58,364 bases of DNA from contig NTJT01000005.1 in the NCBI GenBank assembly GCA_002457605.1, positions 1 through 58,364 on the forward strand, given 5' to 3'. Both the position numbers and the translations under genes were made by a program. Positions 1 to 20,628 of this stretch are shown in pieces (the first letter of the stretch is position 1; the number at the start of each line of letters is the position of its first letter). Below the pieces are notes generated by a model. That model was not told the origin of the DNA. It made no database searches and worked only from the letters and a program-made list of their open reading frames with translations. This DNA is from Marine Group II euryarchaeote MED-G34 (GTDB taxonomy: Archaea; Thermoplasmatota; Poseidoniia; Poseidoniales; Thalassarchaeaceae).

Positions 1-2
1 GG

Positions 3-1907
3 ACTGTAGGAAACTTCACCGACGGCAACAATGGTTACCAGATGTCGGATGTCGATGGAATCGCCACTCTAGCTCTCGATGACATAACAGCAGAAGTAAT
101 GACTTTCGACTTCTTCCTACAGGACACCGGATACGAGACCTCAACCCCCGTGGACTACCTAGTCATCAGATTCATCGGCGCGAACAACGATATCGAAATC
201 ATCAACACCACGGGCTACGACATCGACACTGACAACTCGTCATGGCTCGGCACGTGGACGACGATGACGGTGATGATAGGAGCAGCCGGGCACGGTCATC
301 TAGAAGTTGAATTCGCCTCGAACTCTGCTATGGAAGCCCTGTATCTAGACAACATACAGTTCACCTCGACAGTGGTGCTCAATGCCGACTTGGATGATGA
401 CGGCGACGGCTGGCTCGATGTCGATGAGACCGACTGCGGCACCGACCCCCTAGACGGCAATGATGTTCCAGTTGATACTGATTCTAACGGAATCTGTGAC
501 GCCCTTGAGGGTGGTGACTTCGATGGTGACGGGATACCCAATGACAGCGATCCCGACGACGACAACGACGGCTGGGATGATACCGATGAGACTTCATGCA
601 ACACTAATCCGTTGAATTCGGACTCAACTCCGACAGACACGGACGGTGATGGAATATGCGACTACCTCGACTCTGACGATGATGGTGATGGTGTCGAGGA
701 TGGTAACGACTGCGATCCTCTCGACCCCGACGAATCCACTGACAACGACATGGATGGAATCTGCGATGGAGCGGATGATGATGATGACAATGACGGGGTT
801 TTGGACGATGATGATGCGTTCCCAGAAGACCCCTCGGAGTGGTCGGATACCGATGGAGATGGCAAGGGGGACAACTCCGATGACGATGATGACAATGATG
901 GTATCTCCGATCTGATGGAGGAAATGTGCTTCTCGGACTCGCTCGATGCCAACTCGGTCCCGACGGACACCGATGGCGATGGTGAATGCGATCCCATAGA
1001 CTACGACGACGACGGTGATGGCTACTTCGATGATATCGAGCAGAACTGCCAGTCTGACGAGCTAGACCCTAACTCGGTCCCAGTGGACTCAGATGGGGAT
1101 GGCGTATGCGACCTTCTGGACAGCGATTCTGACAACGACGGAGTGGATGATGCGGATGATGCGTTTCCTGATGATGCAAATGAGTGGGTTGACACAGACA
1201 TGGACGGCTGGGGGGACAACGCTGACGTCGATGACGACGGAGATGGCTGGCTGGATGTTGACGAGGACTCCTGTGGAAGCGACTCAATGGATTCGGGTTC
1301 CGTCCCTGCAGACTTAGACGGCGATGGCGATTGCGATGGTGAGGATTACGACATAGATGGCGATGGAGTCATGAACCCTGACGATGATTTCCCGGATGAT
1401 TCCAGCGAGTGGTTTGATCTCGATGGTGACGGAACTGGGAACAATGCTGACACCGACGATGACGGCGATGGATGGACCGACTCTGATGAGGAGGAATGTG
1501 CCGCGGCTGGCGGGGATGGCGACTCAATGAACGGCAACGTGCAGCCTAATGACAACGATATCGACGGTAATTGCGACGCCCTCGACCCTGACGACGACGG
1601 GGACGGGGTCGCCGATGGGGACGATGCGCTCCCGAACGATGGATCGGAGTGGGATGATACCGACGGCGACGGAATCGGGGACAACGCCGACCTAGACGAC
1701 GACAATGACGGCTGGTCCGATGCTGAAGAGGATGAATGCGGCACTGACCAGTACGACAGCGACAGCACGCCTGTGGACTACGACAGCAACGGGGTGTGCG
1801 ATGCGAACGACCCGATTGTAGAGCCGGAGCCCGAAGGCACCCCTGGGTTTGGCCTGCTATCTGCACTAACGGTGCTCGCTCTCGCAGCTATCGCACGCAG
1901 GGATTGA
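3..1907 (+). CDS. Secreted Asp-rich (thrombospondin type 3-like Ca-binding repeats) surface protein with C-terminal PGF-CTERM sorting signal; 5' end truncated by window edge
   Basis: Tandem DxDGDGxxD units throughout; C-terminus EPEGTPGFGLLSALTVLALAAIARRD (PGF + TM + Arg tail). Frame stays open upstream of the ATG at 42 to the window edge. Confidence 0.85.
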   Translation, partial: TVGNFTDGNNGYQMSDVDGIATLALDDITAEVMTFDFFLQDTGYETSTPVDYLVIRFIGANNDIEIINTTGYDIDTDNSSWLGTWTTMTVMIGAAGHGHLEVEFASNSAMEALYLDNIQFTSTVVLNADLDDDGDGWLDVDETDCGTDPLDGNDVPVDTDSNGICDALEGGDFDGDGIPNDSDPDDDNDGWDDTDETSCNTNPLNSDSTPTDTDGDGICDYLDSDDDGDGVEDGNDCDPLDPDESTDNDMDGICDGADDDDDNDGVLDDDDAFPEDPSEWSDTDGDGKGDNSDDDDDNDGISDLMEEMCFSDSLDANSVPTDTDGDGECDPIDYDDDGDGYFDDIEQNCQSDELDPNSVPVDSDGDGVCDLLDSDSDNDGVDDADDAFPDDANEWVDTDMDGWGDNADVDDDGDGWLDVDEDSCGSDSMDSGSVPADLDGDGDCDGEDYDIDGDGVMNPDDDFPDDSSEWFDLDGDGTGNNADTDDDGDGWTDSDEEECAAAGGDGDSMNGNVQPNDNDIDGNCDALDPDDDGDGVADGDDALPNDGSEWDDTDGDGIGDNADLDDDNDGWSDAEEDECGTDQYDSDSTPVDYDSNGVCDANDPIVEPEPEGTPGFGLLSALTVLALAAIARRD

Positions 1908-1983
1908 TGGCGCCGACAGCAGGACTCGAACCTGCGACCTGTGGATTAACAGTCCACCGCTCCACCAACTAAGCTATGTCGGC
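1908..1983 (-). tRNA. tRNA-Asn(GUU), CCA encoded
   Basis: Cloverleaf on minus strand: acceptor GCCGACA/TGTCGGC, anticodon loop CTGTTAA, TPsiC GGTTCGAGTCC, 3' GCCA. Confidence 0.95.
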
Positions 1984-2023
1984 CTGACTCGCGGCTGGCC
2001 CCATCCTTCATCAAAGAATCGGA

Positions 2024-2971
2024 TTATTCCCACTCAATTGTTCCGGGTGGTTTGTGAGTGACATCATAGACTACCCGGTTCACTTGTCCCTTGAGGGAAT
2101 TGGTAATCTCTGTACTTATTTCAGCCAGTAAATCATGCGGTATCTCTGAGAACTTGGCACTCATACCGTCTAGACTCGTCACTGCTCTGACTACTACTGT
2201 CTCTCCGTGCACGCGCGCGTCACCGTGCACGCCTACGCTCCTGACTGGGAGCAGGGCTGCAAAATACTGCCAGGGTAGCTCGCACCTTCCCTCTGCCGCC
2301 GCAGCCTGCAGGCGAGTCTCGACAATGTAGCAGGCCTCGCGGCAAGCCGCTACCCTATCTGGTGTGATATCACCGAGTACCCGGACTGCGAGGCCCGGGC
2401 CGGGAAACGGCTGTCGTTCGCTCGACGGGATACCGAGATCGCGGGCGATGGCCCGAACCTCGTCCTTGTAGAACTCGCGCAGTGGCTCGACTATGATTAG
2501 GTCGACATCCTCAGGGAGTCCACCGACGTTGTGGTGCGACTTGATGACATCACGATTTCCACCACCCGACTCTATCCAGTCGGGCGCTATGGTGCCCTGG
2601 ACTAGGAATTTTGCTCCGCATCCTTCCTGTTCGCCTTCGAAGACTCGAATGAATTGCTCACCAATGACCTTGCGCTTCTCCTCTGGGTCAGTGACTCCTG
2701 AAAGATTGTTCAAGAAGCGCTCCGAGGCGTCCACTACCTTGAGTTCAATGCCGAGGTCAGAGAACATATGTGCGACCTCGTCTGACTCGTTCTTGCGCAT
2801 CAGTCCGGTATCGACGTAGACACAGTGCAAGAGACTCCCCACGGCACGGTGGGCTAACACTGCGGCCACCGTGCTGTCTATGCCTCCGGAGCAGGCGATG
2901 ATTGTAGTGTCATCAATCTGAGATTGCAGGGCCTCGACTGCTTCGTCTACCAGCATCTGAGTCTGCATCAA
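2024..2971 (-). CDS. guaA: GMP synthase (glutamine-hydrolysing), ATP-pyrophosphatase subunit (archaeal B subunit)
   Basis: PP-loop ACSGGIDSTVAA; C-terminal KPPGTIEWE typical of GMPS; stand-alone without the amidotransferase domain. Confidence 0.93.
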   Translation of the reverse strand: MMQTQMLVDEAVEALQSQIDDTTIIACSGGIDSTVAAVLAHRAVGSLLHCVYVDTGLMRKNESDEVAHMFSDLGIELKVVDASERFLNNLSGVTDPEEKRKVIGEQFIRVFEGEQEGCGAKFLVQGTIAPDWIESGGGNRDVIKSHHNVGGLPEDVDLIIVEPLREFYKDEVRAIARDLGIPSSERQPFPGPGLAVRVLGDITPDRVAACREACYIVETRLQAAAAEGRCELPWQYFAALLPVRSVGVHGDARVHGETVVVRAVTSLDGMSAKFSEIPHDLLAEISTEITNSLKGQVNRVVYDVTHKPPGTIEWE

Positions 2972-2975
2972 GTGC

Positions 2976-3449
2976 TCACTCCCTCAGCGACTCGTCGTCC
3001 GCAATGACTCTCGCAGTGCGTGACTTTCTCCACTCGGCAAATCTGGAAGAAAGATCAGTGTCGCTCATAGCGAGCATCTGGATGGCTAGCACAGCGGCGT
3101 TATCGCCACGGTCAACGCCTACGGTTGCCACGGGCATCCCAGGTGGCATTTGGACTATTGAAAGCAGACTATCCAGTGGCACCTTACCTCCAACGGGAAC
3201 GCCGATTACCGGCAAGGTAGTCATCGCTGCGACTACCCCTGGAAGGGCTGCTGCCATCCCTGCCATCCCAATGAAAATCTGGCATCCGTCTTCGATGGCA
3301 GTGGTGACAACGTCCTCTAGATATTTAGGAGCTCGATGGGCCGAAGCAACCCTAACTTCGTGTGAGATGTCGAACTCAGAGAGTACGGCAGTGCATTTGT
3401 TGGCGACCGGAAGGTCAGTCTTGGACCCAAGCAGTATGCAGACGTCCAT
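2976..3449 (-). CDS. purE: 5-(carboxyamino)imidazole ribonucleotide mutase PurE
   Basis: MDVCILLGSKTDLPVANK...VRVASAHRAPKYL...GMAGMAAALPGVVAAMTTLPVIGVPV. Start placed at internal Met (track ORF runs to 3548). Confidence 0.92.
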   Translation of the reverse strand: MDVCILLGSKTDLPVANKCTAVLSEFDISHEVRVASAHRAPKYLEDVVTTAIEDGCQIFIGMAGMAAALPGVVAAMTTLPVIGVPVGGKVPLDSLLSIVQMPPGMPVATVGVDRGDNAAVLAIQMLAMSDTDLSSRFAEWRKSRTARVIADDESLRE

Positions 3450-3471
3450 GTACTGCCGGGACGTAGTCGGT

Positions 3472-4455
3472 TCAAATGCCTGCCGTCGAATCAGCGTCGT
3501 TGCTCTGCGCGTCGCTGACGAGTAGTCTCTCCGGCCACTCCAGCCCAAGGTCGGCTACCGGCGGCTGGGACAGTAGACTGATGGCCAGAGCCTTTCCGAC
3601 TGATCCGTCGGAGAAGGGGTCGTGAACGAAGCCGACGCCATCGAGCAGCGCAAGGGCGATGAAACGGTCACTACCACGACTGGCCCCTGCAATCACCAAG
3701 TGCCCATACTCACAGCTCATCCTAGCGATTGAACCAGTGGTCCATCTCTCGGAAATCACTTGCCACTCAGAAGATAACTGAGATGAAGATTCCCAAGCCG
3801 ACTGATCGATAGGCAGAAGCCACCTCGCTGCCGGGATTTGCAATATTTTCCCAATTTGGCGGAACGAGCGGAACCATGCGACCCAAAACAGAGTGTAAGC
3901 AATCCAACCAAGAATCGGGCTCAATAGTATGTGAAGAGCAAAAATTGCCGACGCACCAGCAAAGGTCACCCAGTCGAGAGGGAGAGACAAGAGTGTACCC
4001 TCAGACATCGGCTGTGCAGAACGGACTAGGTAGAGCGGTAACAGAATCAGTATCCATGTCAGGGCGAAGAATAGTGCTGCTACGCTCTGATCGTCGGCAG
4101 GGAGACGATCGGGGAGAATGAGGGGGATAGCGGAGAGTAACAGGAACAGCGGTGACCATGCGAGGGGAAACAGTATCGAGGGGGCAACGGGTTGCAGGCG
4201 CTGCCTAGCCCATCCTTTACCGCCCTCCTGAGCAGTTGTGCTCAGCCAAGACTCTGGCGGAGTCAACTCGCCCTCCTTGGCATCTTGCTGCGAGGAGTCG
4301 TCGGGAAGCCTTCTCCACCTAGGTTCGCCCACCAGCCACTGGCGGTCCAGCCCCGCTTCCATGGAGTCCGCAAGGGTCGTTAGGTATTGTCCGCTTCGGC
4401 CATCACTCAGGACCGGGATGTCTGAGAACCAAATTACGGGCTGCCCATACCTCAT
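3472..4455 (-). CDS. Multi-TM membrane protein of unknown function
   Basis: Open frame with several hydrophobic segments; slightly overlaps the 3' end of gcvPB. Confidence 0.6.
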   Translation of the reverse strand: MRYGQPVIWFSDIPVLSDGRSGQYLTTLADSMEAGLDRQWLVGEPRWRRLPDDSSQQDAKEGELTPPESWLSTTAQEGGKGWARQRLQPVAPSILFPLAWSPLFLLLSAIPLILPDRLPADDQSVAALFFALTWILILLPLYLVRSAQPMSEGTLLSLPLDWVTFAGASAIFALHILLSPILGWIAYTLFWVAWFRSFRQIGKILQIPAARWLLPIDQSAWESSSQLSSEWQVISERWTTGSIARMSCEYGHLVIAGASRGSDRFIALALLDGVGFVHDPFSDGSVGKALAISLLSQPPVADLGLEWPERLLVSDAQSNDADSTAGI

Positions 4456-12948: not shown

Positions 12949-13527
12949 TCACTCGTCATCGGTTGAGCCCATCAGCCTAGGCAGGAGGATTACTATCCCT
13001 GCCAATGAAGTCATCAGGACCAGTGCGAGGAGGTCGTTGTCCCCTGACTGCTCCCCTTCAGGCCCGATCGGAAGATTGTCCAGTACCATGTGTTGGTCTA
13101 CAGAGAAACTGACGGTGAAGGCAAACTCGACCATGGACTGGTTGTGCTCGATTTGATGCAACATCGAGATATTACCGGGCAGCAGGCCGTTCGATGGGTC
13201 GAGCAATACCAGCTCGGTCACCTCGCAATCGGGATCTGCCCTGTCACCGGTCTCGTTCAGCTCGCACGAGGGGGAGAGCCAGGCCGTGGCCATGTCATCC
13301 ACGCCCTCGAACACCCCGTCCCCATCGGCATCGATTAGTACTCTGTGAATAGCCTCTGCGCGGCTGTCAACATTGTAGAAAAACAGCGAGTCTGTGGAGA
13401 CCAAAACACCTGAAGAAACTCCGTCTGGAGTCACGCCATCCTCCTTTAGAAGCATGGTGTACTCCTTGGTGTCGTGAGCAGTGGCCGGGGTGGCCAGCAG
13501 TAGTAGTGACAGCCCGACTGTCAACAT
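12949..13527 (-). CDS. Exported membrane-anchored protein (signal peptide, about 130 aa domain, C-terminal TM)
   Basis: MLTVGLSLLLLATPATAHDT signal; C-terminal DLLALVLMTSLAGIVILLPRL. Similar architecture and motifs to 17366-17923. Confidence 0.65.
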   Translation of the reverse strand: MLTVGLSLLLLATPATAHDTKEYTMLLKEDGVTPDGVSSGVLVSTDSLFFYNVDSRAEAIHRVLIDADGDGVFEGVDDMATAWLSPSCELNETGDRADPDCEVTELVLLDPSNGLLPGNISMLHQIEHNQSMVEFAFTVSFSVDQHMVLDNLPIGPEGEQSGDNDLLALVLMTSLAGIVILLPRLMGSTDDE

Positions 13528-13541
13528 ACAGACTCCACGCA

Positions 13542-13561
13542 CGCCCCGCCGTAGCGGGGCG
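13542..13561. other. Perfect 8-bp stem hairpin CGCCCCGC-CGTA-GCGGGGCG
   Basis: Read directly; in divergent intergenic region. Confidence 0.9.
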
Positions 13562-13597
13562 ATGGCTTCAACATGACCGGCAGGCTCGCGACGACCA

Positions 13598-15343
13598 GTG
13601 GATTCGCAACGCACCATTCTGGCCATCGGACTTGCTGTCTGCGTAGTAGCAGCTGCAACTGCTGTGATGATGATGTCAGACGTGGCAGATGATGGCGGTG
13701 AGAGTTCTGACATGATGCTCGATCCACTGATGCAGGAAGAGGATCATGACCACAGGAATGCAAGCCAACACATGATGTACACCGATAATATCCAGCCTGT
13801 CTCATTCAACGAACTGACAGCCCCGGGTAACGCCGAAATTCAGGTCGCAGAATCTCCTGATGGCAAGACCTACGCCTACATCGCCGGATGGACTGAGATG
13901 CATATCGTCGATGTCACCGATCCCTCAAACACCACGGTTACTGGCGTGTACTATGACCCGAATACACAAGTCCTTGATGTCAAGTACCTCGAGTACAACG
14001 GACGAGAGTACGTCATAGTGCAGAACCAGATAGTTGACCCAGGGGCTGCGGATCCAAATGTGGGCAACTGGGAGGACCCTGCACAAGTCACTGTTACCCT
14101 AGTGGATGTCACCGACAAGACTGATCCTAGTTTCGTTGATGCGTGGTACGACGTCGACCACCCAAGTGGGCCGCACAACCTCTACGCTCACATGATAGAC
14201 AACGAGTGGTACATCTTCGTCGCCAACCCTGACTACGAATCCTGTGACGTTGGCCAAGGTGATGCTTGCGGAGGCATCACTGTTGCCCACCTGAACTTCG
14301 CTGGCTACGGCGACCTGCCGCGAATTGTCAAGGTAGGTGAGGCTGAAGTAAGTTGGGAGTCTACTCTGGGCGGTTGGATATACATCCATGACATGACCGT
14401 GCAGACCTGGCCGGGAGAAGATTCCAACGACCCGCGCTTCGGTAGAACCTACGTCTACGGAGCTTACTGGGAGGCCGGCCTGAGGATCTTCGACGTCTCT
14501 GATGTCCCACACCCCAACAAAGATCTCGTCGAGTACATGTGGCACGGATCACTATGCAGACTCTCAGGAGGCACACAGGCTGGTTGTACTTGGAGAGCTC
14601 CAGAAGTAGGGCAGTGGATGGAGTTTGAGGACTTCGACGGCGACGGCGAGATTGACTGCGGCTGCACTGGCAACGAAAACGGCGGCCGGGCGTCCTACAT
14701 ACACTACGCCGAGCCGATTGACGACATGGTCGACGCCTCGCACCTCGGATATCCTCCGGGCAAGATGCACCTGACCATTCTCGCTACTGAGGTCCTTGAG
14801 ACCACTGTTGGCACCGGCATGGCCTATTTGCTTGACACGACTCCGTATGAGGAGGTAAACGGAAACGTTCGCTTCATGCCTCAACTAATCCATGGATGGG
14901 AGAACCCGTTCGCACTCGATCACCACATCCCTGGGGGAGAGGAGTGGTTGCTATTCAGTCCCCATAATGCCGACACTCAGATCTTCCAGACCGGATTGCC
15001 TGGATTGCCCGATAACAGCCATGGTGGAGCTTGGGACGGTAGAATCTACCTCAGTAGCTACCATGCGGGGCTCTGGGTTATGGATATCGAGACGTTGATG
15101 GCAAAGGGACTTGAGGACGGTAACAAGTCCGATGTTCACATGTCTGCGACCGTTGGCTACCACCTGTCTCACGGAGCTGACGGCGAGCCGTTAGATAGCG
15201 CGTACTACGACTTCGGATGGACTCCATTCATCTGGGCCGCTGAGTACCACAAAGGCTACACTTACCTGTCATGCATCACCACGGGACTTTACATCGTTCA
15301 ACTGGACATTGACCGGCCATACGGCATTCCATTGGACCAATAA
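13598..15343 (+). CDS. Membrane-anchored LVIVD-repeat / beta-propeller protein
   Basis: GTG start; N-terminal TM RTILAIGLAVCVVAAATAVMM; repeats MHIVDVTDPSN, VTLVDVTDKTDP, LRIFDVSDVPHP, GLWVMDIETL. Confidence 0.8.
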   Translation: MDSQRTILAIGLAVCVVAAATAVMMMSDVADDGGESSDMMLDPLMQEEDHDHRNASQHMMYTDNIQPVSFNELTAPGNAEIQVAESPDGKTYAYIAGWTEMHIVDVTDPSNTTVTGVYYDPNTQVLDVKYLEYNGREYVIVQNQIVDPGAADPNVGNWEDPAQVTVTLVDVTDKTDPSFVDAWYDVDHPSGPHNLYAHMIDNEWYIFVANPDYESCDVGQGDACGGITVAHLNFAGYGDLPRIVKVGEAEVSWESTLGGWIYIHDMTVQTWPGEDSNDPRFGRTYVYGAYWEAGLRIFDVSDVPHPNKDLVEYMWHGSLCRLSGGTQAGCTWRAPEVGQWMEFEDFDGDGEIDCGCTGNENGGRASYIHYAEPIDDMVDASHLGYPPGKMHLTILATEVLETTVGTGMAYLLDTTPYEEVNGNVRFMPQLIHGWENPFALDHHIPGGEEWLLFSPHNADTQIFQTGLPGLPDNSHGGAWDGRIYLSSYHAGLWVMDIETLMAKGLEDGNKSDVHMSATVGYHLSHGADGEPLDSAYYDFGWTPFIWAAEYHKGYTYLSCITTGLYIVQLDIDRPYGIPLDQ

Positions 15344-15368
15344 CGCCCAAGCGCGTAGCGCTCGGGCG
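15344..15368. other. 11-bp stem (1 mismatch) GTA-loop hairpin immediately after stop codon
   Basis: CGCCCAAGCGC-GTA-GCGCTCGGGCG. Confidence 0.85.
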
Positions 15369-15420
15369 ACCGGTGCATTGAACAACCGGCCGTATTCGTC
15401 GGCGATTGCGAGGCTTGCCC

Positions 15421-17373
15421 ATGTCCGGACTGAGAAACACTCCGATGTTGATGATGGTCGCGCTGATGGTGCTAGCGCCACTGTCTGGATGCCTCTCATT
15501 CATCACCGGAGACGATTCGGTCGATGATGGATACACTTGGGTCGACCCTGTAATCGAGATTGAGGACGCCAATCACTCGCACAACGACTTGTTGGCCCAC
15601 AGACTGTATACTCCTAATGCCAATCTGATAGACTATCACAATCTCAACTGCGATGGCGAGGTCAAACCTCCTGCAGACTTGGATAACACGGCCGGTCGAC
15701 CTTGCTATCCAGAATGGAAGAACGTCGCGCCAACTCCCGGAGACAACTCGGAGATAGCCATCGAGGGCAACTTCCTCGAGGACTGCGAGATCTACGCTGA
15801 CGGTAGTGGCGGTTGCTACGCTTATGTCTCTAGTTACAATCAGTTTGAGATTCTCGACATCAGCAGCCCTAACAACATACAATTGCTCTCAACATACTAC
15901 GCAGAGATTGCCCGGATGATAGACATCAAAGTCACTCCCGACAACAACTGGGTGCTGGTGAACCATGAGCTTACCAACAGCGAGCTCGACCCAATACCTA
16001 ACGACGACGACGCCAATAGTGGGACGAATCGCCTCGACGTCATCTATGTAGGAGACAAAACCAGTCCAATCAAGGTCGCTGAGTGGAACAATCCTCCGGC
16101 CGGCTTCCACAATCAGGATGTACACGTCTATTGCGACTGGGATCCTGCCAATCCACTGTGGTCCGGAGAGGAGTGTCACCTATTCCTGTTCGGTGCTGAC
16201 CCCTATCCAGAAATGGTTGCAGGCGGAGGTCCTGTCAAAGGCACTCAGGTATTCTACGTCCCTCTTGGATTTGAATCATGGAATCCAACTTCTAATGACG
16301 AGCAGCAAAACTCGAGTCGTGAGATTCTCCGTTGGGGAGCCTATACTCCCGAAGGACAGACCACCTGCGGCGGCTCGGTTTTCAATCATGACCACGTCTT
16401 CTTCGTCCACCCTGTGACCAAGCAGAAACTTCTGATTGCATCTTACTGGGATGCTGGTCTGAGGATTGTGGACGTCACTGAACCACCGCAAGTGGCTGAC
16501 GCGATGGGTATTACTTGGCCACAGGAGATAGGTCGGTGGTTGGGGTGCTCATCTGATGACAGCGGATGGTACGGTCCTGACGGAGGAGGTCATGCCGACA
16601 TGTCCGCCGAAGAGTGGCTCGACGCTGGCCAGGGCAACGGCAACATCCACTATGCAATTCCGTTCAAGAATCTGGTCTGCGATGGTATCAGCGAATATGA
16701 TCCTATGTCAGAATGGCCTGCCAGCTGTGGAACCGGGCCCGAAGATGCGAGCTATGGTCAGAACTGGAGGCATTACACAATCATCGCCCCTGAGTACGGC
16801 TCCAACGACAATCATACAGGATACCTATGGACTATTGATACGACCGATCCGACCAAGCCGTTCCTCGTTTCCAAATGGAGGCTTCCGGGCCAAGGCATGC
16901 TTGCCAACGGTAGCAGCCATCCTCAGCACTACATCCCTGGCGGCTACATCTACAGCCCGCACAATGGTGACGTCGGTCTCAACGGTCACGCCTATTGGAC
17001 TCACTATCATGCAGGTGCTTGGGTAACTGATCATGGTCATTCATGGGACGAGTTGGTCTGGGAGAACGGCTACCCTGAGCCTGATCGAGGATACACGGCG
17101 ATAGTTGAACTCGCCCCCACTCATACAATCGGATACTACCTTCCTTCAGGGCCCGAATGGACTGACAACGCGAGTGAGTCGATGGGGTATGACATGGCCG
17201 ACTGCTGGGCATCATGTATGATACCGTTCGACTGGGGCCTCCAATACGATCCCCGGGGGTTCGTTCTAATCTCAGAGATGGTCAGTGGAATCTACGTCGT
17301 GCAGTTCGACGAGGACTACGACCCTCGCTACAACTACCCGGCCCTCTGGCAGGCCGAGGCGAGTGATGACTGA
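15421..17373 (+). CDS. LVIVD-repeat / beta-propeller lipoprotein, tandem paralog of the preceding gene
   Basis: Lipobox-like LAPLSGC; QFEILDISSPNN, GLRIVDVTEPPQ, YWDAGLRI, HYHAGAWV. Confidence 0.8.
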   Translation: MSGLRNTPMLMMVALMVLAPLSGCLSFITGDDSVDDGYTWVDPVIEIEDANHSHNDLLAHRLYTPNANLIDYHNLNCDGEVKPPADLDNTAGRPCYPEWKNVAPTPGDNSEIAIEGNFLEDCEIYADGSGGCYAYVSSYNQFEILDISSPNNIQLLSTYYAEIARMIDIKVTPDNNWVLVNHELTNSELDPIPNDDDANSGTNRLDVIYVGDKTSPIKVAEWNNPPAGFHNQDVHVYCDWDPANPLWSGEECHLFLFGADPYPEMVAGGGPVKGTQVFYVPLGFESWNPTSNDEQQNSSREILRWGAYTPEGQTTCGGSVFNHDHVFFVHPVTKQKLLIASYWDAGLRIVDVTEPPQVADAMGITWPQEIGRWLGCSSDDSGWYGPDGGGHADMSAEEWLDAGQGNGNIHYAIPFKNLVCDGISEYDPMSEWPASCGTGPEDASYGQNWRHYTIIAPEYGSNDNHTGYLWTIDTTDPTKPFLVSKWRLPGQGMLANGSSHPQHYIPGGYIYSPHNGDVGLNGHAYWTHYHAGAWVTDHGHSWDELVWENGYPEPDRGYTAIVELAPTHTIGYYLPSGPEWTDNASESMGYDMADCWASCMIPFDWGLQYDPRGFVLISEMVSGIYVVQFDEDYDPRYNYPALWQAEASDD

Positions 17374-17923
17374 GTTGATTCAGATGCGCGTGAAGGCGCT
17401 TGCCGCTATTCTCGTTCTGATTCTGATGATGCCAACCGCAGCAGCTCATGGGGCCGATACATTCTCGTTCATCATGCGAAACGAGTCGATCCAGCCAGAC
17501 ACTGCGCAAGTCATACAGAACGATACTATGATTTTCATCAACACAGCTGACTATGATCGAAGAGTGGCCATCGACAGCGATGGAGACGGTACGGAAGAGA
17601 TGGACTGCGTCGCTGGCCCCTCAAATTCATCATCCACTGAAGACGAGTGCCATCTATGGTTGGAGCCTGCCAACTGGAGCGAAGGAAGTTACGAGGTCAG
17701 AGTCTATTCGAATGGCAGCCTCTGGCAGAGCATCGACCTTACCATAATACTAGACAACCACACTGAGACCTTGCCCCCTGAAGGCTTTGTATTCGGACCG
17801 GATCCGGGTGAGCCTGAAGAGGATGATATGTCGAGCATGCTTCTGAGTGCCGCCGTGCTAATGGCTGGTGCCGCTGCGATTGTTTGGGTTATTCGTAATG
17901 TGAAGGAGGATGAGGAAGAGTGA
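17366..17923 (+). CDS. Exported membrane-anchored small protein (cupredoxin-like beta-sandwich suspected), C-terminal TM
   Basis: Signal ALAAILVLILMMPTAAAHG; NDTMIFINTADYDRRVAIDSDGDG; C-terminal TM then acidic tail. Confidence 0.7.
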   Translation: MTELIQMRVKALAAILVLILMMPTAAAHGADTFSFIMRNESIQPDTAQVIQNDTMIFINTADYDRRVAIDSDGDGTEEMDCVAGPSNSSSTEDECHLWLEPANWSEGSYEVRVYSNGSLWQSIDLTIILDNHTETLPPEGFVFGPDPGEPEEDDMSSMLLSAAVLMAGAAAIVWVIRNVKEDEEE

Positions 17924-18651
17924 GCCGAGTCCTAGCTATTCTGATGACCGCCAGTGTCGTTCTGGCAGGATGCCTTGGAAATGCTGAGTCTGACGTGTTC
18001 TACGGCGAGGACATCAACCCACCGATGCATGTCGATGACTTTGTGTTGATGGACGAGAATGGTGACAACTACTCGCTGTCTCAATTGCAAGGTAAAGTGA
18101 TTGTAGTCGCCTTCCTGTTCACACGCTGCCCCGACATCTGTCCCATCGTCAGTGCCAATCTCGACTTCATCTCCGAGCAGCTCGGTGACAGTTACGGCTC
18201 TGAGGTCGCAATCTTATCGATTACTGTGGACCCTTGGACTGACAACTCCTCGGTTCTAGCGAACTATGCCGAGCAGAGGGGATTGGACTGGCCTCATCTT
18301 ACAACTTCCAATGCCAGCGATATCTCCGATTTAACTGAGGTCTGGTCTAACTTCGATGTCGGCCTAGAGACTTATGCCTCAGACGAGGACTCCGATGGAG
18401 TGGCAGATGGCTTCGATATCTGCTCTGGTACTCCTGAGGGAGAGCCAGTAGATGACAACGGTTGCGGCCTAGAGACTCAGCAGTCCAATGGTGATGTCAA
18501 GATAATGCACCATCCGCTTAACTACTGGGTAGATCACACGACCGGGACTATCATCGTGGACAAGCAGATGCGTCAGAGGGTCTGGTGGGGCGACACTGAC
18601 TGGAATGCGGAGATGGTCCTCGAAGACATCTACATGTTGCTGGAGGAATGA
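17920..18651 (+). CDS. SCO1/SenC family lipoprotein (copper chaperone / thiol-disulfide)
   Basis: Lipobox VLAGC; FLFTRCPDICPIVSANLDFI; VDHTTGTIIVDK; GTG start overlapping the previous stop (GTGA). Confidence 0.9.
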   Translation: MSRVLAILMTASVVLAGCLGNAESDVFYGEDINPPMHVDDFVLMDENGDNYSLSQLQGKVIVVAFLFTRCPDICPIVSANLDFISEQLGDSYGSEVAILSITVDPWTDNSSVLANYAEQRGLDWPHLTTSNASDISDLTEVWSNFDVGLETYASDEDSDGVADGFDICSGTPEGEPVDDNGCGLETQQSNGDVKIMHHPLNYWVDHTTGTIIVDKQMRQRVWWGDTDWNAEMVLEDIYMLLEE

Positions 18652-19739
18652 GGATGCGCGAGGAAACGGTCGCCCTCCTACTTGCGTTTATCCTGCTCCT
18701 ACCGGGATGTGTTGCATCTGAGGACGAAGTGGATTTATTCGGGGTCGAGTATAGGGAACCTCCTGAAGCGCCCGACTTTACTCTCTTTGATCAGGATGGA
18801 GAGTTGTTCACACTCTCCGAATACGAAGGTAAAGTCGTAGTCGTTGCATTCGTCTACACCTCTTGCCCCGATATATGCCTAGTCATTTCAGCCAACCTAG
18901 ACTACATCGACCAAAACCTCGATGGTTATTCCGATGAAGTCGTAATTATCTCAGTCACAATAGATCCAGCTCGAGACACAATCAACCATCTCGCTGAGTG
19001 GACCGATCTGATGGGCTACGATTGGCATCACCTGACTGGACCTACATCCACCCTCCAAGATACTTACAGATTATGGAATGTGATAGTGGATAACGAGCAC
19101 ATAAACGCCAGTCAGCCGCCCGAGGATGAGTCAAACCGAATTGCAGTTCTATACCCCGACAATTCAACATTCCACCATGACGAAAACGGAGTGGGGCTGA
19201 GCGGGAGTGATTTCGCAATGCGGGTTTTCAACGAGTCTAACATCAGTTATGACATGGCTGAAGGAATTATCGGGGACTGGCAATCAGATGGCGAATGGTC
19301 GTGGGTTCTGCACGCATGGGATGTAGAGAACGAATCTTGGACAGTGACCCAAGAGAGTGTCTCATCCATTATCCTCAGTACTGGCACTCACCTTGCTTGG
19401 GCTGCCAGTAACGCTGATCTTGACAACCTTCCTCCAGGCGTGGACTGCGATGGTCGTGGCTGGGTAATGGGCTCCGGAGGCGGGGCTCACTGCATGTGTG
19501 ATGACGGCTATGAGAGGCCGGAAGGAGATTGGTTATCTTGCATAGCCGAGGGCACGGGCAGTAGTGATAGTGACGACGAGGTAGATCCACACGAGGAGTC
19601 CTTGGGAGAATACGAGGTTGGCCACTCGACGGTGACCTTTATCCTCGACAAACAGTTGCGAAAGCGTGTCGCCTACTCAGGAATTTACTGGGAGGCGGAT
19701 GAGTTCATTCACGATCTGAAAGCACTGGCGGACGAGTAA
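18648..19739 (+). CDS. SCO1/SenC family lipoprotein with a long insertion including a Cys-rich EGF-like stretch
   Basis: Lipobox LLPGC; FVYTSCPDICLVISANLDYI; HSTVTFILDK; insertion with CDGRGWVMGSGGGAHCMCDDGYERPEGDWLSC; ATGA overlap. Confidence 0.88.
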   Translation: MRMREETVALLLAFILLLPGCVASEDEVDLFGVEYREPPEAPDFTLFDQDGELFTLSEYEGKVVVVAFVYTSCPDICLVISANLDYIDQNLDGYSDEVVIISVTIDPARDTINHLAEWTDLMGYDWHHLTGPTSTLQDTYRLWNVIVDNEHINASQPPEDESNRIAVLYPDNSTFHHDENGVGLSGSDFAMRVFNESNISYDMAEGIIGDWQSDGEWSWVLHAWDVENESWTVTQESVSSIILSTGTHLAWAASNADLDNLPPGVDCDGRGWVMGSGGGAHCMCDDGYERPEGDWLSCIAEGTGSSDSDDEVDPHEESLGEYEVGHSTVTFILDKQLRKRVAYSGIYWEADEFIHDLKALADE

Positions 19740-19848
19740 GAAATGGCTGTATTTTAATCATAGAAACTGCTAACTGACAGCAAGTAACGATTCTTGACGA
19801 GCGCGATAACCCACGTCTTTGATATACCATAGATTCTGTATTTTAGGC

Positions 19849-20628
19849 ATGGCAGATGAGGATGGGGTGCCTCGCTCATTGTTCCTCGCGGGACTGATGA
19901 TTACCAGCGTGATGGTTGGAGTGCTGTTCTTTGATATCCAAAAAGAGGGTGAGAACTTAGCTCCAGTGATTGAAGGAGATATCCCGACCAACATCCTCAT
20001 CGGCAGCATCGATTCACTGAGTCTGAACATCACAGACGAGATGATGAACGAATTGACTTTGTCCGTTTCTCTCAGCGGTAACGAGATTCAGCATCAGATG
20101 GATGCTGATGGCATTCTAATCATCGACATCTCCCAACTTGGAATCGGGAGCCATGTAGTCAAGATAGTGGCCACTGACAGCATCGGCCAAGAATCAAAGT
20201 GGTCAGCCGCATTCATGATTGAATACCCTGATGAGGGGTACACGGTAATCGTAGTCAGCAGCAACGAGATAACTGTCGAGCGAGGGAACAGTACCACGGC
20301 CTCAGGAGTCTTAGTCCACCAGAGTATGAATACCTGCAATCTAGAGTGGTCTGACGGCGACATAGACGAGTTCAGCCTCAACCTGCCATACGACGAGGAG
20401 GGCAGGTTCGATCTAGGGTTCTCAAACATCCAAGAGAACTTGACCATCACGGTCAGGGGGACCTGCGGTACCTGGGTCGACTCAAGTGAAACTGAAGTAT
20501 TCAACATCACAGTCACTGAGCCAGCGGCAGAACCAGAGCCTACTCGCGGATGCACCGACTCGGAGGCCAACAACTACGACGAGGCCGCTGAGGAAGACGA
20601 TGGTTCATGCGAGTATGACGAACAGTAA
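19849..20628 (+). CDS. Exported/membrane-anchored protein with C-terminal GCTDxxAxNYDxxAxxDDGSC motif
   Basis: N-terminal TM SLFLAGLMITSVMVGVLFF; C-terminal TRGCTDSEANNYDEAAEEDDGSCEYDEQ. Confidence 0.75.
   Translation: MADEDGVPRSLFLAGLMITSVMVGVLFFDIQKEGENLAPVIEGDIPTNILIGSIDSLSLNITDEMMNELTLSVSLSGNEIQHQMDADGILIIDISQLGIGSHVVKIVATDSIGQESKWSAAFMIEYPDEGYTVIVVSSNEITVERGNSTTASGVLVHQSMNTCNLEWSDGDIDEFSLNLPYDEEGRFDLGFSNIQENLTITVRGTCGTWVDSSETEVFNITVTEPAAEPEPTRGCTDSEANNYDEAAEEDDGSCEYDEQ

Follow-up and report, generated by a model that had tools for sequence, protein, structure and literature searches.

A gene cluster for propellers, N-terminal-histidine proteins and SCO proteins in marine Poseidoniia that looks like a cell-surface copper system

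Background

Uncultured archaea of marine group II abound in the ocean. A locus from one of their genomes encodes six exported proteins, i.e. two LVIVD-type propellers, two small anchored proteins and two SCO1/SenC proteins, and raises the question of what such a set may do together at the cell surface. The original prediction treated it as one module for copper or respiratory assembly. Judged from its sequences, the cluster has the appearance of a hitherto undescribed copper system of the cell surface, for which we infer both the metal and the reaction.

Gene content of the locus

The window (the whole stretch of DNA that was analysed, 58,364 nucleotides) belongs to a Candidatus Thalassarchaeum-like member of marine group II, and its source assembly is 66% complete in 31 contigs. 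Among named relatives, those whose B is 97-99% identical are assemblies of uncultured Euryarchaeota, followed at a slightly greater distance by Candidatus Thalassarchaeum. Gene A diverges from the other five genes, which follow one another as B-C-D-S1-S2. All six ORFs were present where the original prediction had placed them, and its statement that everything is exported agrees with the export signals detected in all six. The features are as follows:

12949-13527, minus strand: gene A, exported protein with a C-terminal transmembrane anchor and a beta-sandwich fold; probable ATG start at 13527, stop at 12949.
13474-13476, minus strand: His codon at the start of mature A; the signal peptide ends in ATA directly before this His.
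13090-13098, minus strand: D-x-H of A, from the family alignment; A also has two conserved Cys.
13598-15343, plus strand: gene B, LVIVD-type propeller, apparently seven-bladed, with an N-terminal transmembrane anchor.
13745-13771, plus strand: H-x-H-x5-H of B (H50, H52, H58; HDHRNASQH), from the homologue alignment.
14174-14176, plus strand: putative axial His H193 of B (inner strand), from the alignment and AlphaFold2 strands.
14387-14389, plus strand: putative axial His H264 of B, on the same basis.
14702-14704, plus strand: putative axial His H369 of B, on the same basis.
14963-14965, plus strand: putative axial His H456 of B, on the same basis.
15406-17373, plus strand: gene C, LVIVD-type propeller lipoprotein (lipobox LSGC), paralogue of B; start TTG, or ATG at 15421. 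Its H235, H328, H415 and H519 are counterparts of the putative axial set of B by the B/C alignment.
15574-15600, plus strand: HxHx5H of C (HSHNDLLAH), a motif common to B and C.
17384-17923, plus strand: gene D, paralogue of A; His codon of the mature N-terminus at 17447-17449, a DNH close to the C-terminal end of the domain, and a C-terminal transmembrane segment.
17920-18651, plus strand: gene S1, SCO1/SenC lipoprotein of the propeller-linked clade, with CPDIC and the conserved His (YWVDHTTGTIIVD).
18648-19739, plus strand: gene S2, SCO1/SenC lipoprotein of the cytochrome-oxidase-linked clade, with CPDIC and the conserved His (YEVGHSTVTFILD).

The signal sequences of S1 and S2 terminate in a lipobox-type Cys. 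Both 4-nt overlaps described earlier are real, namely GTGA between D and S1 (17920-17923) and ATGA between S1 and S2 (18648-18651).

Two further elements of the locus were observed. Immediately 3' of the B stop codon, the B-C intergenic region contains a strong GC-rich hairpin (15344-15368), and several other Thalassarchaeaceae carry a hairpin of different sequence in the same spacer (homologous spacers of L142-L180); the sequences suggest a transcript-processing or attenuation element. Adjoining S2, an ORF at 19819-20628 encodes an exported, transmembrane-anchored protein that weakly matches an Ig-like domain (Big_13). Its orthologue lies 3' of S2 in many Thalassarchaeaceae loci, and it may belong to the cluster.

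Conservation of gene order

The exact order of A on the opposite strand followed by B, C, D and two SCO genes was found in 51 of 80 named-genome loci, which is far beyond chance. Six of the 51 intact loci came from the AG-/AH- isolate series; as we take these records to be single cells, binning artefacts are an unlikely explanation of the gene order. Within the order, 94 of 116 genomes have B; so do four of the five from a third family of the class, presumably marine group III. Elsewhere in the phylum sample only short generic LVIVD matches were obtained. Outside archaea, the search covered plasmids, where neither B nor C had a match, the PDB and a pattern-based scan of GTDB contigs.

Within the class, 37 of 40 loci, marine group III among them, had a gene of the A/D family next to B in divergent orientation. 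Conservation of the LVIVD-SCO linkage in relatives had been set beforehand as the test of the original prediction, and the linkage was indeed conserved: a SCO gene lay 3' of B in at least 27 of 39 loci by an automatic count that misses overlapping neighbours, and the gene-order lists added three loci in which the two genes are adjacent by overlap (L053, L056 and L067). No such linkage was found in L048, L051, L052, L054, L058 and the marine group III genus g23, from which it follows that B does not strictly require S1 as a neighbour.

The sister family (f2) carries the unit in two separate places, A-B-SCO at one locus and A'-C at another. Marine group III kept A-B, and one of its genera has a SCO gene between the two. 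The position of A beside the propeller is the oldest linkage, reaching marine group III, and from the split in the sister family together with A-B in marine group III, the six-gene cluster is most simply explained by modules with shared parts that came together later.

Other neighbours were also recorded. Exported lipoproteins flank A-B-SCO in the sister-family loci L057 and L062, and both flanking proteins in L057 are M28 peptidases. In marine group III (L126, positions 1-4351; L127, 10785-11321), A is followed by an unknown transmembrane protein of 172-178 amino acids; beyond it, L126 encodes two unknown exported proteins and a redoxin-like protein.

The A/D family

That the second anchored protein resembles the first had been noticed before, and A and D indeed share 25% identity (pairwise E 6e-8). 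What had gone unnoticed is their CopC-like combination of an N-terminal His with DxH, and judging by sequence these anchored-domain proteins are the most informative part of the cluster. The A/D family was without a Pfam match, none of its 55 members matching CopC (for D, PF13473 reached E 0.17 only), and the sequence search of solved structures with A/D returned no homologue.

Across the alignment of 55 mature sequences the mean column identity was 34%, and only H1, C71, C84, G101, D127 and H129 were conserved in at least 90% of them. His directly follows the A-x-A-like signal-peptide site in 57 of 59 A/D proteins, while it occupied this position in none of the 159 other ORFs of these loci with an AxA-like site, a control made with a crude regular-expression test. 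CopC binds Cu(II) by His1, Asp83 and His85 (PMC7529816). His1 and D-x-H of the A/D proteins represent the same ligand set; the residues are present, and copper binding is predicted.

The AlphaFold2 model of A was a confident beta-sandwich (pLDDT 92.7). Its Foldseek matches were weak and fell on various beta-sandwich proteins, cupredoxin domains of laccase and EfeO among them, and CopC was absent among the 50 best. We conclude that A and D constitute one new family, which has the ligand signature of CopC but is not itself a CopC. A type-1 blue copper (cupredoxin) identity was also considered and rejected: the His-Cys-His-Met ligand set is missing, and the conserved Cys pair, 13 residues apart, has no conserved His or Met pattern nearby.

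The propellers B and C

The LVIVD family (PF08309, gathering cut-off 20.2 bits) matched B with 34.0 bits (E 1.8e-8) and C with 26.3 bits (E 4.5e-6), which together with the SCO matches given below confirms the identities originally assigned; 32 of 33 B homologues matched as well. Homologues across the order are 57-97% identical to B of the window, and those of C 68-94% identical to its C. The two propellers align with each other as profiles (E 2.5e-38), and nine His are matched between them, H50, H52, H58, H193, H264, H369, H391, H456 and H489 in B numbering. C has in addition 12 invariant Cys. The His/Met-rich stretch pointed out earlier in B is real; across homologues H-x-H-x5-H is its conserved part, which recurs in C, and its Met residues are not conserved.

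The AlphaFold2 model of B was a propeller (pTM 0.80), apparently with seven blades by our own count from the predicted strand list. According to our reading of the strand order, H193, H264, H369 and H456 each start the innermost strand of a blade, pointing to convergence of the four on the axis and to a putative metal site there. HxHx5H and the four inner-strand positions are also kept in a distantly related LVIVD protein (L134) from a different lineage of Thermoplasmatota, and therefore the His site of the propellers is probably older than the cluster. With this, metal-site signatures were found in A/D, B, C and both SCO proteins, in support of the original prediction.

Foldseek of B returned generic propellers, with LGI1 EPTP on top and a Sphingobium phosphotriesterase (5hrm) as the third-ranked solved match; a copper enzyme was not among the best structural matches. 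The enzyme 5hrm is a propeller whose metal centre is binuclear. Sequence searches of solved structures with B and with C gave no homologue, and the open-licence literature on LVIVD with copper or archaea contained no such system and no copper link.

The propellers might be metallo-hydrolases or binding proteins without copper, with S1 acting as a thiol-disulfide oxidoreductase that folds Cys-rich exported proteins and A/D binding nickel, zinc or the like. The rank of the phosphotriesterase speaks for this, as do the 12 invariant Cys of C, the Cys pair of A/D and the exported lipoproteins around sister-family loci with their M28 peptidases in L057; moreover, N-terminal-His proteins can prefer nickel (DUF4198, PMC12537917). 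We nevertheless find this explanation rather unlikely, for the match to 5hrm reaches only TM 0.46/0.53 at 12% identity, the A/D ligand set equals that of CopC, and the B-linked SCO proteins keep the His that SCO proteins use for copper.

Two branches of SCO proteins

The SCO1/SenC family (PF02630) recognised S1 with 75.5 bits (E 5e-21) and S2 with 88 bits (E 7e-25). Both proteins possess CxxxC, as CPDIC, and the downstream His (VDHTTG and VGHSTV, respectively), and CxxxC with a His of the copper-ligand type is retained in B-linked SCO proteins too. SCO genes were found in 32 of 33 genomes. In a tree of 71 SCO sequences, S1 grouped with the B-linked proteins (86%) and S2 with those of the oxidase (93-94%), the supports being SH-aLRT values from a quick search. 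The His motif differs correspondingly, D/N-H-x-T-G-T being typical of S1 and the B-linked proteins, and G-H-S-T-x-T/x of S2 and the oxidase-linked ones.

One of the SCO genes is located 4-6 kb from COX2 both in the sister family and in some genera of Thalassarchaeaceae. The sister family has COX2 (with the CuA motif) and its own SCO about 4.5 kb away, and a second SCO behind B. By comparison, the one Thalassarchaeaceae COX operon that was read (L096) is without SCO; since S2 belongs to the oxidase clade, it was most likely transferred here from the operon of the oxidase.

Taken by themselves, some of these observations would also suit a cluster that as a whole serves cytochrome oxidase, in which A/D collect copper, both SCO proteins pass it to CuA and the propellers are respiratory-assembly scaffolds or copper stores. 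Most Thalassarchaeaceae have both SCO genes inside the cluster and the operon of L096 has none, S2 is of the oxidase clade, and COX2 proteins retain the CuA motif. However, the oxidase-linked SCO and the A-B-SCO locus are separate in the sister family and some Thalassarchaeaceae genera, C of the sister family resides at another locus with its own A', marine group III retains A-B also where no SCO gene adjoins it, and conservation of nine His at the level of an enzyme in two paralogues is unexpected for scaffolds. We regard service to the oxidase by the entire cluster as unlikely. Thus, of the single copper or respiratory module proposed originally, the respiratory part stands for S2, which is the oxidase branch, while A/D, the propeller and S1 are a separate system, as the sister-family loci and the SCO tree indicate.

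Some other SCO genes deserve mention. The SCO near COX2 in L081 (G030:C16) is almost identical to a marine group III copy (G244) although G030 is assigned to Thalassarchaeaceae; bin contamination or very recent transfer is probable, and as likely contamination this oxidase SCO was left out as evidence for f1. Several SCO proteins of the sister family are without Pro of CPxxC (CLDIC, CIDIC and CYDIC). In its genus g15 (L086, L087 and L088), a tandem SCO-like pair with CDxxC motifs forms a third SCO clade and sits away from both the propeller and the oxidase loci.

That B and C are SBP56/methanethiol oxidase members and the cluster an mtoX operon is highly improbable: the outline architecture of a propeller with conserved His and an adjoining SCO1/SenC is shared (PMC5739008), but SBP56 membership was rejected because PF05694 matched neither C nor any of 33 B sequences, nor anything in 60 genomes from the order or in a phylum-wide sample of 194 (the Sulfolobus control was positive), the HH and HxxH motifs of SBP56 (PMC10362175) differ from the conserved His pattern of B and C, and no MauG gene was recognised among the scanned neighbours.

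Proposed model

In the best reading, a propeller enzyme at the surface would receive its metal from a SCO protein and a histidine-brace protein, resembling the mtoX-SCO operon in function without being a member of SBP56. According to this model, the membrane-tethered A/D proteins would catch Cu(II) at the surface through the N-terminal His and D-x-H in the fashion of CopC. S1, with CxxxC and His, would reduce or relay copper towards the propellers, or set their thiol/redox state. The four inner-strand His of B and C would hold copper as the catalytic centre, probably assisted by HxHx5H and the two further shared His, and both propellers would act as extracellular oxidoreductases. S2 would deliver to CuA of cytochrome oxidase, and its relocation into the operon of most Thalassarchaeaceae would have gathered the SCO-dependent copper delivery of the cell in one place. 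The sequences establish homology, export signals, conserved ligand residues, gene linkage and the SCO clades, while we infer copper, the direction of its transfer, the oxidoreductase chemistry and any substrate.

We give an even chance to the central proposition, that A/D, the propeller and S1 are a dedicated surface metalloenzyme system of the class Poseidoniia and S2 serves CuA. The more specific proposition is doubtful, if possible: that B and C represent a new class of copper oxidoreductases, axial poly-His seven-bladed LVIVD proteins metallated by a new histidine-brace A/D family with a dedicated SCO, conserved throughout the planktonic marine groups II and III. A class-wide surface metalloprotein system, conserved as enzymes are, would indicate unrecognised copper-dependent extracellular chemistry and would tell what LVIVD propellers may do. 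Because A/D are paired with propellers, the model lends itself to a concrete test.

Comparison with known systems

Each part of the cluster has a known counterpart from which it departs. Like SCO1/SenC chaperones, S1 and S2 combine PF02630, CxxxC and a conserved His, but the propeller-linked clade to which S1 belongs is distinct from that of the oxidase. As for the LVIVD or choice-of-anchor B propellers (PF08309, TIGR04312), the LVIVD repeats of B and C exceed the Pfam cut-off and TIGR04312 has weak matches in B and in 9 of 25 C sequences; these stay far below the threshold of that family, however, B scoring 20.4 bits against a curated cut-off of 100 and C homologues reaching E 4.8e-4 at best. 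B and C also differ from such propellers in the fixed set of nine His, in HxHx5H and in the conserved A/D and SCO neighbours.

A/D share with CopC and other histidine-brace copper proteins the N-terminal His after signal cleavage, the internal D-x-H and the small beta-sandwich, and differ in their C-terminal transmembrane anchor, conserved Cys pair, weak fold matches and lack of the Pfam CopC match. The bacterial anglerases Ang-1 and Ang-2 are small membrane-tethered N-terminal-His sandwiches that bind copper, and anglerase has been proposed to catch metal ions (PMC12537917). A/D likewise have an N-terminal His on a tethered beta-sandwich; unlike anglerases, which are fused to a HupE/UreJ-2 permease, they have a single transmembrane segment with a short tail and pair with propellers.

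The closest precedent in function concerns SBP56 methanethiol oxidase, a copper-dependent protein with a proposed four-His copper site, whose gene adjoins SCO1/SenC in the operon mtoX-SCO1/SenC-mauG (PMC5739008). The Poseidoniia cluster departs from it in the extra N-terminal-His protein, in the missing PF05694 match and in the other His motifs. Common to both is a propeller-type protein with conserved His encoded beside a SCO gene, and if copper is confirmed, the two would work in a similar way.
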